A program made the position numbers and the translations under genes. A DNA stretch of 37,783 nucleotides from a virus: positions 1 through 37,783 of IMG/VR virus record IMGVR_UViG_3300010373_000027. The stretch is one strand, 5' to 3'. Every line of letters starts with the position of its first letter. The first letter of the stretch is position 1. Positions 4,752-26,452 of the stretch are shown here, in pieces. The notes below the pieces were generated by a model, which was not told the origin of the DNA, did no database searches, and saw only the letters and a program-made list of their open reading frames with translations.

Positions 4752-5354
4752 TTACACCCCCAAGCTTGAGTTACGTGTAGCTAACAGATTCCGAACAGCA
4801 GTATCTTGTGTTAACGCTTGCGCTTGAGCAAACTTAACAGCAAGAGTAGCGTTTTGCGCTAGCATGCCAGAATAGTAAGGATCACGATAAATCAACTGCA
4901 TGGAATATCCATCTTGGTTGATATGTGTAACCCCTTGCTTGCCAGTTACGGTGTTGTAATAAACATCAGCACCTTTAGCTGATACACCCCGAGCAACTGG
5001 AGCTTCAGAACTTGTAAGGATACGAATGTTAAATACGCTACCATATTCACTTGGAAGAGCGCTTGCGTTGGTTGGATAGTTCCAAACACTCAAGAAACCG
5101 CTTCCTGTAAGAGCATCGAAATCGGACTGTAGCTCAGTTGAGCTAAGCATAAAATATGCAGAGCGTACTGGGCCAGTTCCGAATCGATCCATGCCTTCGA
5201 TACCGCTCATAAATTTATAAGCGTTATTTGTATCAAGGGTTGTAGCTACTAAGCTGAAATCAGAAACACCCAAGTTTGTTGGGTTGTCACCGTTTGAGCC
5301 GCCAGCTGCATTGATATCAGACGCTGCTGATACAATGTAATCGCGCAAAATTAA
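4752..5354 (-). CDS. Major capsid protein, exon 2
   Basis: C-terminal 200 residues of the MCP, resuming at LILRDYIVSAASDINAAGG after the intron. Family-like features: a shell domain with FMSGIEGMDRFGTGPVRSAYF, IRILTSSEAPVARG, and a C-terminal DGYSMQLIYRDPYYSGMLAQ that fits HK97-fold MCPs of the N4 gp56-like group. The open frame extends upstream to an ATG at 5411, but those first 19 codons are intron sequence. The 3' splice site after G5355 restores the frame as RQAED-LILRD. N4-gp56-like assignment is from the overall pattern, not a database search. Confidence 0.85.
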   Translation of the reverse strand, partial: LILRDYIVSAASDINAAGGSNGDNPTNLGVSDFSLVATTLDTNNAYKFMSGIEGMDRFGTGPVRSAYFMLSSTELQSDFDALTGSGFLSVWNYPTNASALPSEYGSVFNIRILTSSEAPVARGVSAKGADVYYNTVTGKQGVTHINQDGYSMQLIYRDPYYSGMLAQNATLAVKFAQAQALTQDTAVRNLLATRNSSLGV

Positions 5355-5658
5355 CAATCTGTTACTTATCAACCAATTAATTAAAGGCCCCAGCCATGCT
5401 CGCAATGGCATTTTCCTTGTTTCATGACGTCCTACTACGAGAAATCAATCTCTTTAGACGATGGAACCATAATTTATTGGCGTATAGGTCATTTCTGCCT
5501 ATCTCCAAGCCTTTCGTAGCTCGGTTCGGACTGTCGCATCCCTTTCGGGCCTTCTCGCTCAGTCTCTCACGGTCCCTTGTGGGTTCCGCCTTGTCGGCAT
5601 GCCTTTCGGTTTAGCCTTCCAAGTCAATCAGAGAAGGTTTAACGAGGACTTAATCTTA
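5355..5658 (-). ncRNA. Group I intron in the MCP gene (~304 nt)
   Basis: Removing 5355-5658 joins two halves of the capsid protein in frame. P1: exon end CGAGGAU pairs with the internal guide GUCCUCG, leaving the diagnostic U-G pair at the 5' splice site. P10: intron AUUAA, just before the guide, pairs with the 3' exon start UUAAU. P7: GAGAGACUGAGCG and GCGACAGUCCG supply the GACU/AGUC pairing typical of elements R and S. The intron ends in G. The portal intron shares the core and the GTAACAG near the 3' end. It encodes no protein, so it is a minimal ribozyme needing an endonuclease in trans if it is mobile. Confidence 0.9.
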
Positions 5659-6067
5659 ATCCTCGGCTTGACGCATTGCAACAGCTAATCTTTCAGATAC
5701 CCAGGCAAGAACTCCTTCCTGGTCCTGCAAAATTACCTGCTCGTTGATTCTTAAAGCTTTACGCCGCCATCAAGCATGCTGCACAATCATTAATGCAGCC
5801 TGTTCCAAAAAACGCCATTTGTGCATCTATAATATCCCTCTGTGGCACTTGAGCCGCAGGATCAATCCCGCTATTACCCAATTGCACAGTAGGCGGTTGA
5901 AGCGCTCTTGGGCGCATAAACCGCATTGTTGTACCGCCGTTAGCTGGCATGCTAACTTTGTCACAAACCGTGATGTAATTCATGGTTGGAGTTGGTACAT
6001 ACAACATTGCAGGAGCAAGTGATTGCAAAATCATTGGCCCCAAATTGCCAGTTGTAGTAATCGACAT
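5659..6067 (-). CDS. Major capsid protein, exon 1 (carries a +1 frame disruption)
   Basis: N-terminal part of the MCP, start ATG 6067 with a GAGG site 8 nt upstream. Frame A reads MSITTTGNLGPMILQSL ... DIIDAQMAFFGT and then a stop at 5761-5759. The continuation (LRINEQVILQDQEGVLAWVSERL ... RQAED) is in the +1 frame and runs to the 5' splice site at 5659. Leaving out 43 nt (5800-5758) would join FFGT to ALRINEQV in frame and match the spacing I recall for this capsid family around its aromatic-Gly turn and the following D/E-x-V strand. Mature protein would be about 322 aa. As printed, an unbroken MCP cannot be translated. Confidence 0.8.
5758..5800 (-). other. 43-nt out-of-frame insert within MCP exon 1
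   Basis: The segment between FFGT and ALRINEQV adds 14 codons plus one base and brings in stops in both relevant frames (TAA in frame A, TGA in frame B). It contains two 8-bp palindromes on or next to its edge (AGCATGCT and AAAGCTTT). The inverted repeat TGATT/AATCA brackets the sequence from about 5789 to 5745. Exact borders are ambiguous. It may be a translational bypass element, a lesion, or an assembly fault. Confidence 0.55.
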
Positions 6068-8472: not shown

Positions 8473-10440
8473 TTAAGCAAATTGCTCAACAGGCTGCTGT
8501 TTTTGAGGCATTCCAGCCATAATTTGTTCCATAAATTTCTTAGCAGCTTCATTTTTTTCTACGTTCATTCTAGCATTTTTTTCGGTTTCTTCTTCATCAT
8601 ACTTAATGCTTTCTAGTTGGTTTGCTTTAAGGAAGGTTTCTACTTCTCCGAATTTCTGCACAGTCTCTAAAAGTTTTTGAAGTGCATCCATTTTCTCTCT
8701 AGTAGAAATAGCATGATTCTTAGAAATCTCTGATATTCTTTCTTCAAATAGGCCTACATTGCTTTCTGAGCGGGCATCTCTTTCTCTTGCTTGTGAAAGC
8801 AGATTATGAATCTTTGCCATAAGTTCTTTTAGCTTCATTTCTTCGACAGTATGTTTGAGATTCATTTCCTCAGATTGAGCTGCTTGCATTTGTTGTTCTT
8901 GAGCTTGTAAGAACTCTATTATATCAGCTTTTCCAGTGATATTAAGTTTTGGGATAATCATGGAAGGAGGAAAGACTTCTCTACCAAAAGCTTGATTCAT
9001 TTCCATCATTTGTTGCGCTTGAAGATTTTGCTGTGTAGGCGTTAAATCTGTCTCTTCAACAATCACTTTATATTTTGAGAAAACTTTGGAATAGAAAAAT
9101 GCAGAAGGCTCTTCCCCTATGAGCAACTTTACTTTTTCAGCATTCCAATTGTTAAGCACTATAGATAAAAGTTTATCTCCTACAAGCTTCAGAGAAAAAT
9201 CCCACTGGTCGAAATATTTCTGGAAGACAAGAAGATTAGCAGCTTGTTTGATCAGAGCGGTAAGACTAGATATTTGCTTATCTTGCTGTCCAGACCAATT
9301 TTCAATGTTTATTCCTGAAGTTTCATAAATCAATTTAGACATCTGATCAGCTAAAGCTAGATCTGATTCAGGGACACCCGAAGGAATTATCTTCTCAACG
9401 TCAGACATGTCATAGCCTTCGTTAATAAGAATATCCCAGCCCTGTCCGGATTTCTTTAAATTATCTTCATTAGCAACAGCTCCAATCTTTCTTTTCCAAC
9501 CGGCATTGATGGTAGCGGAAACGATGTCGTTATTAGTGATAACTTTCCAGTTAAATAGGAATTGAGGATCTCTCATCGTTCTAACAAGCGAGCGCACTCT
9601 AAGATCGTAATAATTTATGTGTGGTTCATAGTTCCAAAAGACCGGAATAAATGGACATGAGTCAAATCCAAGTGGATTTTCCCCGTGGTACATCACTTGA
9701 TCGTTTAAAATTGTTGCTAATTTCCAAGAGGGAACTTCAACATTAACAATTTCCATATCAGGAACGTTGTATAAAATCTCTTCAATGTTTTCATGGTTTT
9801 GAGCAAAATCAAAAAATTGATTTCTCGATCTACTGTAAAGGCGTTTTCTTTTGCTTTTGCTTTTGTAATATACATAAGAAAGGACAAGCAGGTCATTTCT
9901 CGCCATATTGTAATTTTCTGGCAAGAAATAAAAGCTGCCATATCTTTGAGGCGTTCCCGCCATTGGAACTATAATATCTTTTTTATCCGGGAATCTTTCT
10001 TCAGCAACCTTTTTATCTATATACTCTTGGCACCAAACAAATTGAGCATCACTCATGTCAGGGTTTCTAAAATAAGGATCAACCAAAAAGCTATTGTATT
10101 CCCAGACTTTTAATTTCAATTGTCCTTGTGCTGGGTCATCATGAGCATAATCAAGGTAAGGTTGTAGAAGCACCATTCCGGAAACAGCGGATAGCTCACA
10201 AGCTTTTGAAAATTGCTCGTGAATGCCTTCTGTATTGCAAACATGAGTCATCAGCATATTATATTGATCAGTAGTTTCTGGATCTGCGCCTTCTGTTGGA
10301 ATATAGCTTATAGCCTTTCTATGTTGCCTTTGGAAGCCTGTAACCATGTTTACAGGTTGTTGGATCAGGTTGAAATAATATTGCTGGTAGGAGGTAGTGG
10401 GAGAAAAATTGAAGTAGCGGTTTACAAAGCTTTGTGCTTT
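8473..10440 (-). CDS. Portal protein, exon 2
   Basis: Main part of the portal protein. The coding frame starts at about 10440 (KAQSFVNRYFNFSPTTS) rather than at the internal ATG 10347, because 31 residues upstream stay in frame and read as protein. Portal-like features are an alpha/beta clip and wing region, WNYEPHINYYDLRVRSLVRTMRDP, and a long C-terminal Gln/Glu/Lys-rich coiled region (AQEQQMQAAQSEEMNLKH...) as in podovirus portal barrels. Together with exon 1 it makes about 691 aa, normal for the P22/podovirus portal class. It forms the dodecameric DNA channel and docks terminase. Confidence 0.85.
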   Translation of the reverse strand, partial: KAQSFVNRYFNFSPTTSYQQYYFNLIQQPVNMVTGFQRQHRKAISYIPTEGADPETTDQYNMLMTHVCNTEGIHEQFSKACELSAVSGMVLLQPYLDYAHDDPAQGQLKLKVWEYNSFLVDPYFRNPDMSDAQFVWCQEYIDKKVAEERFPDKKDIIVPMAGTPQRYGSFYFLPENYNMARNDLLVLSYVYYKSKSKRKRLYSRSRNQFFDFAQNHENIEEILYNVPDMEIVNVEVPSWKLATILNDQVMYHGENPLGFDSCPFIPVFWNYEPHINYYDLRVRSLVRTMRDPQFLFNWKVITNNDIVSATINAGWKRKIGAVANEDNLKKSGQGWDILINEGYDMSDVEKIIPSGVPESDLALADQMSKLIYETSGINIENWSGQQDKQISSLTALIKQAANLLVFQKYFDQWDFSLKLVGDKLLSIVLNNWNAEKVKLLIGEEPSAFFYSKVFSKYKVIVEETDLTPTQQNLQAQQMMEMNQAFGREVFPPSMIIPKLNITGKADIIEFLQAQEQQMQAAQSEEMNLKHTVEEMKLKELMAKIHNLLSQARERDARSESNVGLFEERISEISKNHAISTREKMDALQKLLETVQKFGEVETFLKANQLESIKYDEEETEKNARMNVEKNEAAKKFMEQIMAGMPQKQQPVEQFA

Positions 10441-10735
10441 CTGTTACTTTTGTGACCAATATACGATTTTATCATATAATTGGCGGGGAAACCTCTTCGG
10501 ATCTCCCTCACGAGTTTTATATATAGCTCGTGTTCAGACTGTCGCTTCGCCTTTCAGCGTCTCCTCACTCAGTCGTTCACGGTGCTTTCGCTTCCGCCTT
10601 GTTTTCCTTTTCAGGAGGTCCAAGACAATCAGAGGAGATTTAAGCTGGCCCATACCTAAGCCAGCATAAAAAAGTGTATCAATATTACTTTGATTCCAGC
10701 GCTTTTAGTTACTTTTTTATAACAGACCCGCATTA
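10441..10735 (-). ncRNA. Group I intron in the portal gene (~295 nt)
   Basis: Splicing joins the short N-terminal exon (...FMPIEQA) to KAQSFVNRYF in frame. P1: exon end AACAGGCU pairs with guide GGUCUGUU, with U-G at the splice site. Core elements match the MCP intron: CTCTGATTG, ACAAGGCGGA, ACCGTGA-CGACTGA (element R) and GCGACAGTC-GAAC (element S), followed by CGAGCT. The 3' end is GTAACAG. An alternative pair of sites, one base later at the 5' end and four bases later at the 3' end (intron 10437-10734), also keeps the frame and would give EQASQSF. No ORF inside. Confidence 0.88.
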
Positions 10736-10843
10736 AGCCTGTTCTATAGGCATAAACTTACTATACAAATTATCTAACCACTGTCTAATATTAGACTGTG
10801 TAGGCTCCATTCCACTTTGCCAAGGAGAATAGTAAAAGGTCAC
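10736..10843 (-). CDS. Portal protein, exon 1
   Basis: 36 codons from a GTG at 10843: VTFYYSPWQSGMEPTQSNIR and then QWLDNLYSKFMPIEQA, ending at the intron. A strong GGAGG lies 4 nt before the GTG, and an in-frame stop just upstream rules out a longer start in this frame. The sequence is a typical amphipathic N-terminal portal helix. The exon begins 13 nt after the HNH gene stop. Confidence 0.75.
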
Positions 10844-10856
10844 GTAACCTCCCTAT

Positions 10857-11534
10857 TTATTCTTTAAGTACTTTATAACCATATTGAGATAAAAACTCAA
10901 TGTACCACTCTATTTTGTCAATAACTCTTTGACCAGGTGGTTGGGCTTTTGACCATAATTCAAGATTTTCTAAACGATTATCATCACGTATGCCATTTTT
11001 GTGATGAACTCTTTCGTGCTCATGTAACTCTCTTCCTAAATGACCCATCATGACAAGTACATGTTGATATTTTCTTTTAAATTTTTGCGTTTTAGGGTCT
11101 TTATATACCATTAAAATATAACCCTTTTTGTTTTTATAACCTTTTCCTTTAGGTCCTTTAGGAAAAACATGATCTAAGGGAAGTCCCTTTTCAAATCTTG
11201 TTTTATTTTTCCCGTATGCATTTACTCTTTTAAGAGTTTTGATGTGTCTTTCAGGGTTATATTTTTTTTCTCTTTGATATTGACAGGCTGTACAATATTT
11301 ATATTTAGCCCCGTAAAAAAATACTTTTCCGCAATCTACACATTCACTACGTATTAAAGGGCGGCATTTATCACAATATTTTTTTCTTCCTAATTCTGAT
11401 TTTTCTTTGCAAATGGCGCAATATTTGTCTAATTTTTGATAATTTTTTTTATGGTAAGATTTTGCGTAGCATTTTACACAAATATTAGTCTTTTTTCTTT
11501 CATGTTCCTGATTACAAACAACGCATAACTTCAT
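10857..11534 (-). CDS. HNH homing endonuclease with three zinc knuckles
   Basis: 225 aa from ATG 11534 (GGAGG 5 nt upstream; a further ATG at 11567 has no ribosome site). Three CxxC...CxxC modules lie at Cys 4/7/19/22, 39/42/54/57 and 65/68/81/84. They are followed by a basic region and an HNH fold at about 155-195 with VHHKNG (176-181), N186 and ENLELW, the HNH_3 pattern of phage free-standing endonucleases. It lies outside both introns but directly upstream of the portal gene, where a site-specific nick could drive homing of the intron. It probably cuts intronless alleles; the target is unknown. Confidence 0.88.
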   Translation of the reverse strand: MKLCVVCNQEHERKKTNICVKCYAKSYHKKNYQKLDKYCAICKEKSELGRKKYCDKCRPLIRSECVDCGKVFFYGAKYKYCTACQYQREKKYNPERHIKTLKRVNAYGKNKTRFEKGLPLDHVFPKGPKGKGYKNKKGYILMVYKDPKTQKFKRKYQHVLVMMGHLGRELHEHERVHHKNGIRDDNRLENLELWSKAQPPGQRVIDKIEWYIEFLSQYGYKVLKE

Positions 11535-11551
11535 ACAACCTCCGTAGTTGT
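11535..11551 (-). promoter_or_regulatory. Hairpin presenting the HNH ribosome site
   Basis: ACAAC (minus strand, 11551-11547) pairs with GTTGT (11539-11535) around a 7-nt loop that holds GGAG, the Shine-Dalgarno of the HNH gene. Phage homing-endonuclease genes are often translationally damped by such structures. Weak stem, so a modest claim. Confidence 0.45.
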
Positions 11552-11612
11552 TTCGAGAAAAGGACATGCCAGGCGATTCGGATTATCGCTCTTCGGGTGC
11601 CCCTAGACATGT

Positions 11613-26365: not shown

Positions 26366-26369
26366 TTAT

Positions 26370-26441
26370 TCCGAAGTAGCTCAGGGGTAGAGCGATCGCC
26401 TGTTAAGCGAAAGGTCGTTGGATCGTAACCAACCTTCGGAG
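26370..26441 (+). tRNA. tRNA-Asn (GTT)
   Basis: Acceptor stem TCCGAAG / CTTCGGA pairs fully, discriminator G. D arm GCTCAGGGGTAGAGC. Anticodon arm TCGC-CTGTTAA-GCGA gives GTT. T stem GTTGG / CCAAC. The T loop reads ATCGTAA rather than the usual TTCGANN, which may mark decay or adaptation. No CCA encoded. Confidence 0.92.
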
Positions 26442-26452
26442 AAAGAAAAACA

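Follow-up and report, generated by a model that had tools for sequence, protein, structure and literature searches.

The DNA studied here is a 37.8-kilobase virus record of IMG/VR (37,783 nucleotides (nt); the window, meaning the whole stretch analysed), whose major capsid protein (MCP) gene, on the minus strand, is interrupted by a 43-nt insert. We consider it probable, at roughly 0.8, that this insert is a mini-intron of group I type that has no catalytic core and depends on its neighbour, being excised by the core of the intron downstream, stopping ribosomes early and tagging the truncated capsid protein. With less assurance, we lean towards a wider proposal, that such elements form a new class of ribozyme-less group I-type introns, down to 30 nt in size, which would be excised by the core of the intron that follows on the same transcript and would act as a translation gate, at once shielding the ribozyme from ribosomes and marking truncated capsid protein for degradation.

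In the proposed mechanism, a guide within the insert would pair in the precursor messenger RNA on both sides, forming P1 (with a U.G wobble) with the end of the upstream exon and P10 with the first bases of the downstream one. The active site would be supplied by a full group I intron starting 91 nt downstream in the same transcript. Besides excising its own intron, this neighbouring core would dock the P1/P10 helix of the mini-intron and perform the two usual transesterifications. A ribosome on the unspliced message would meet the stop codon of the mini-intron before reaching the ribozyme and so be kept off the folding core; in-frame stops after the upstream exon have already been thought to keep ribosomes from folding ribozymes (PMC3984707). 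The same stop would add -CLMAA-COOH, an ssrA-like tail expected to direct the truncated capsid protein to ClpXP.

The insert in the capsid gene

A protein scan of viral contigs returned 80 relatives of the MCP at 83–91% identity, and a second scan added more; phage isolate records held one distant MCP only. Intact relatives read FFGTGCIINEQV at the position of the insert. An earlier note on this DNA had proposed alignment with relatives as a check, and in this comparison none of the 57 loci with an uninterrupted MCP carries an in-frame insert.

Introns were placed by protein match with our own spliced aligner, which required only a U before the intron and a G at its end. On the window MCP it returned two introns, of 43 nt (5792–5750) and 304 nt (5658–5355). 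The first has the sequence TAATGATTGTGCAGCATGCTTGATGGCGGCGTAAAGCTTTAAG, is preceded by U, has G as its last base, and is cut out as GGCTGCAT/TAATG...TTTAAG/AATCAACG. Once these 43 nt are left out the family sequence is regained exactly, and removal of both introns gives an open MCP of 322 codons (322 amino acids). The gene, on the minus strand throughout, begins with exon 1 (5793–6067, ending ..FFGTGC(AT)), which shares about 90–98% amino-acid identity with relatives. The coreless mini-intron follows at codon 91, phase 2 (5750–5792), a placement supported by spliced alignment to intact MCPs and by same-site inserts in relatives. Next come the 91-nt exon 2 (INEQVILQDQEGVLAWVSERLAVAMRQAED, 5659–5749), assigned by amino-acid identity to relatives, and the 304-nt intron. 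Exon 3 runs to the stop codon (4752–5354) and carries the C-terminal part, which matches the phrog_1357 major head protein.

The earlier note had recognised a break in the MCP frame at this place, the need to leave out 43 nt for frame and family spacing, and a stop in each frame of the insert, all of which we find as well. Its junction, FFGT/ALRINEQV, lay about 11 nt off and gave the wrong residues; the correct one is GCAT/AATC.

That the window is a single metagenome contig would suit a sequencing or assembly error, or a dead gene, an explanation that we regard as extremely improbable. Five further contigs (L002/L107, L020/L106, L105, L108 and L109), which come from separate metagenomes, have inserts of 33–44 nt at this very site, the portal gene repeats the arrangement (see below), and the amino acids of exon 2 are those of the relatives despite 17–25 nt differences in 90. 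Because same-site inserts occur in independent contigs, and because pairing with the exons lies far above that of shuffles, the insert is neither chance nor error; it is real. A more specific candidate, a single-base sequencing error giving FFGT..CLMAAKALRINEQV, was rejected, relatives having no such residues.

MCP genes of this phage group are very intron-dense, with up to six introns per about 322 codons (for example L127, minus strand), and across relatives over 30 different insertion sites are seen in the MCP.

Guide pairing in coreless introns

The insert contains TGATT-G-TGCAGC, which pairs with both exons in the manner of group I P1 and P10. The P1 strand, GTGCAGC (5778–5784), pairs with exon GCTGCAT (5793–5799), placing a U.G at the splice site, and the P10 strand, TGATT (5785–5789), pairs with exon AATCA (5745–5749). 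TGATT-G-TGCAGC is a group I internal guide sequence. In group I introns, P1 and P10 juxtapose the splice sites and the terminal G fills the G-site in the second step (PMC3984707). The TGATT/AATCA inverted repeat pointed out in the earlier note is real; rather than bracketing the interior of the insert, as claimed there, it joins a segment inside the insert to the downstream exon and constitutes the P10.

Relatives, together with the portal gene of the window, yielded 46 distinct coreless introns, 41 of them 30–79 nt and five 946–976 nt long, at five sites in two genes (MCP codons 88/0, 91/2, 104/0 and 114/0, and portal codon 36/0; codon/phase). All 46 show the guide pairing, with P1 including the U.G and with a P10 of 3–9 pairs each. 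Twenty-two minis come from loci picked out only by their protein, with no use of the guide in finding them; in these, P1 and P10 together average 12.7 pairs, as compared with 3.55 ± 0.60 after shuffling and 2.3 when the exons are swapped. At the sister site 88, both P1 and P10 show covariation, the guide varying along with synonymous changes in the exon codons for Thr and Phe: exon ACT/ACA/ACC/ACG GG is matched by CCAGT/CCTGT/CCGGT/CCCGT, and 98.7% of cells are paired, with 13 double-change cells (0/500 shuffles). At least 15 nt of 3′ linker always follow P1, in keeping with a geometric need; beyond this minimum length, no conserved motif was found in the linker.

A catalytic core is missing from these introns. 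The 43-nt mini-intron gave no match to R1, our own covariance model of the core, and has no room for a core. R1 likewise finds nothing within the coreless 104/0 introns of the long kind, and none of the 46 coreless introns has the P7 motif. Having no core (P3–P8, with the G-binding P7), the mini-intron is not filed as an autonomous group I intron. Long and short 104/0 introns alike have the guide 24–25 nt before the 3′ end, and the two long introns whose open reading frame (ORF) was searched (L010, L031) encode LAGLIDADG proteins. Some coreless introns (MCP 104/0, about 950 nt) appear to have regained mobility via a LAGLIDADG gene.

Programmed ribosomal bypassing, of the kind known from T4 gene 60 and mitochondrial byps, would leave the insert in the message and carry the ribosome across it. 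The length and out-of-frame position of the insert do resemble known bypassed stretches, it holds a stop, and at T4 gene 60 about 50 nt are likewise skipped inside a phage gene. Matched codons are absent here: take-off codon and landing triplet are synonymous in 0 of 35 phase-0 cases, and a hop in the window from ATT to ATC would drop one Ile of the family GCIINEQ. Bypassing also gives no account of the covarying exon pairing, the terminal G or the dependence on a downstream ribozyme, and we give it hardly any credence; removal at the RNA level fits instead. The earlier note had weighed a ribosomal hop, an RNA step and a wrong sequence, and among these the RNA step is the one supported, in a form that it did not foresee.

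The neighbouring full intron

The partner of the 43-nt mini-intron is a 304-nt full group I intron at MCP codon 122, phase 0 (5355–5658, minus strand), with a P1 of 7 base pairs and a P10 of 9 base pairs. Its catalytic core (P3–P7) at 5526–5641 scores 95.9 bits with R1 (E 1.7e-21). In 26 compact introns, pairing across the core elements P3, P4, P5, P6 and P7, P3/P7 pseudoknot included, reaches 97.7%, and 124 cells show double changes (0/500 shuffles); 84 of the 86 full introns have recognisable core motifs. This covariation marks the 304-nt intron, together with its relatives, as a group I ribozyme. The Rfam model RF00028 (Intron_gpI) gave no match at gathering score for the window 5355–5658 intron or for 16 relative loci, nor did Rfam match window 5300–5900 at E 1. 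R1 was built because Rfam gave no match; it misses some relatives with an ORF-split core, and in the window it finds exactly two cores, at 5526–5641 (MCP) and 10534–10642 (portal). The group I intron family seen here may be overlooked by current annotation.

The link between mini-introns and full introns is strict. In the MCP, a full intron is the next intron after 66 of 66 coreless introns (all loci, including duplicates), at a distance of 24–96 nt from the mini. In a set of 87 distinct MCP genes, retrieved by protein and de-duplicated, all 26 coreless introns have a full intron next, and the 54 genes without full introns have no coreless one (Fisher p 8.5e-13). Nine phylogenetically independent contrasts, taken on a tree of the downstream exon, all run in the same direction (p 0.004). 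A mini lies upstream of every full intron at sites 96, 98, 101, 116 and 122, of none at 24 other sites, and of one in five at site 120. Mini 88 occurs with full introns 96, 98, 101 or 120, and full intron 122 with minis 91, 104 or 114; as these combinations are mixed, mini and partner are not one frozen unit.

The portal gene of the window, also on the minus strand, repeats the MCP design of a mini followed by a full intron. By spliced alignment, exon 1 has a GTG start (10736–10843) and is followed by a 34-nt coreless mini-intron at codon 36, phase 0 (10702–10735; P1 of 8 base pairs, P10 of 3), which brings an immediate stop and no tag. A 43-nt exon 2 (10659–10701) then leads to a full group I intron of 222 nt at codon 50, phase 1 (10437–10658; core 10534–10642, R1 99.2 bits), and exon 3 runs to the stop (8473–10436; PF16510 P22_portal, E 2e-53). 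The spliced portal is open over 704 amino acids. The same order is found in eight other portal loci (L129, L143 and L146–L151; five distinct mini sequences), and portals without a full intron have a mini in 0 of 11 cases. Portal loci were mostly found by a pattern that includes the guide, so that they provide no independent test of guide pairing. An HNH endonuclease ORF (phrog_20891, PF13392; window 10857–11567, minus strand) is not part of the portal intron but lies immediately upstream of the start codon of the portal gene at 10843.

This distribution bears on where the active site comes from. Docking of a P1 helix that is not tethered to the core is chemically plausible, as in vitro work on separated P1 substrates indicates, and the window has two cores; the mini could then be removed by group I chemistry from a free or distant core acting in trans, such as the excised intron of another gene. 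Minis, however, occur only in genes with their own downstream full intron, and each MCP mini is followed directly by one, 24–96 nt off. Ten genomes with minis and cores in the MCP have an intact portal without a mini, and conversely contig 3300042090_000749 (L150, L042) carries a mini and a core in the portal and has an intact MCP. A mini goes together with a core of its own gene, even in genomes that have cores elsewhere; this disfavours a diffusible core, and we hold this route to be unlikely. More doubtful still is removal by a host or phage protein, with the pairing as a recognition structure only. Many group I introns do use helper proteins, and an insert of 30–79 nt cannot itself be catalytic; yet the U.G wobble, the P10 and the terminal G are the signature of a group I active site, and a protein factor leaves the strict presence of an adjacent ribozyme unexplained.

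Several points weigh against excision by the neighbouring core, our preferred reading. Splicing and catalysis are deduced from sequence, and an association by itself is no proof that the neighbouring core acts, rather than a protein factor or a core in trans. The mini also has no P9/P9.0 element by which its terminal G would be placed. The U before and the G at the end of each intron were imposed by the aligner and are partly built in. Each coreless intron allows only one U/G placement. As a control, all placements of the same length with the best protein match were considered, and a U/G cut is among them in 46 of 46 cases against 6.6 expected, which counters the imposed bases, the insert length still coming from that aligner. 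Some minis carry no tag (the portal minis and the second minis of L065 and L088), from which it follows that tagging is not the sole role of minis.

Read-through tails and related systems

Translation of the unspliced MCP message into the mini-intron would end in ..GCINDCAACLMAA-stop (5759–5792, minus strand), a putative ssrA-like C-terminal degron whose final xAA is in frame with the upstream exon. As description rather than independent trials, since related introns share history, AA-stop tails in this frame are found in 33 of 40 coreless MCP introns and 21 of 26 lone full introns beyond codon 60, against 0 of 13 lone MCP introns before codon 60 and 3 of 40 full introns behind a mini; in other frames there is at most one. 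The tails end mostly in LAA, with IAA, MAA and VAA also seen; that of the window is -CLMAA, and L013 and L132 would give NEYALLAAA and EYALLAAA. All four Ala codons and all three stops are used, and the tag lies ahead of the guide, past it, or reaches into the 3′ exon read out of frame. Because codons and position vary, selection would act on the peptide, and we read the tails as reflecting selection for the degradation of long truncated capsid fragments.

The tails might alternatively be a by-product of an RNA motif and not degrons, which would concern the tag only and be compatible with splicing. Recurrent GCAGCATAA-like strings speak for this. Restriction of the tag to one frame, with every Ala codon and stop in use, speaks against it, as do the different places of the tag relative to the guide, even in the 3′ exon, and its absence from N-terminal introns and from most full introns covered by a mini. 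We think such a by-product doubtful. Among full introns, L025 and L029 123/0 and L057 90/0 have the guide separated from the 5′ splice site by about 950–1000 nt that include a long ORF, LAGLIDADG-like motifs being visible in L025, and an LAA-type or VSA stop precedes this stretch.

The E. coli ssrA tag is ANDENYALAA, and transfer-messenger RNA (tmRNA) adds C-terminal tails of LAA/VAA type to truncated proteins. NEYALLAAA and EYALLAAA closely resemble this tag; the tail described here differs in being intron-encoded and in being added at a normal stop codon, without tmRNA.

With phage self-splicing group I introns (PMC3984707; Bastillevirinae set, PMC11878797) the elements share a P1 with U.G, a P10, a terminal G, location in essential phage genes, an in-frame stop near the 5′ splice site and homing endonuclease ORFs, and the partner introns share the P3/P7 core. 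In contrast, the 30–79 nt elements are coreless and would depend on a neighbour, their stop comes with a degron-like tail, and the tested partner introns fall below the Rfam gathering score.

In engineered trans-excision-splicing ribozymes, the guide belongs to the ribozyme, whose group I core cuts out a short internal segment and ligates the flanks. Removal of a short segment by a group I core would be common to both; here the guide is in the excised segment, and the system is natural and confined to one transcript. The term trans-excision-splicing is used in PMC6155759. Trans-spliced (split) mitochondrial group I introns (e.g. PMC3873408) also separate group I parts naturally, but there one intron is broken across transcripts, whereas here a complete splice-site unit without a core stands beside a complete intron. 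The exons are colinear in one gene and not on separate transcripts, as a split intron would have them.

Euglenid chloroplast group III introns are derived from group II introns, measure about 90–120 nt, have lost their catalytic domains and need a core from elsewhere. The minis are likewise shrunken introns without catalytic domains of their own, but of group I type, and we know of no group I counterpart of the euglenid introns. Group I introns are defined as self-splicing, and 30–79 nt is, to our knowledge, far smaller than any known group I intron. Searches of the open-access literature, from which subscription journals are for the most part missing, turned up neither coreless group I introns nor degrons encoded by introns.

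If the reading is correct, a natural and recurrent set of introns, reduced to the splice-site recognition module and reliant on a neighbour, would illustrate how autonomy is lost in self-splicing introns, a step for which discussion is usually confined to group II introns and the spliceosome. A degron written by an intron would be a second new idea, namely that introns limit the damage of their own incomplete splicing, and only where the truncated fragment is long. To annotation, genes carrying minis look like frameshifted pseudogenes.

A genome scan for the host found only stray contigs of relatives (L137–L142), binned in metagenome-assembled genomes of six unrelated taxa. The window also carries a single tRNA-Asn (gtt) gene at 26369–26442 on the plus strand.
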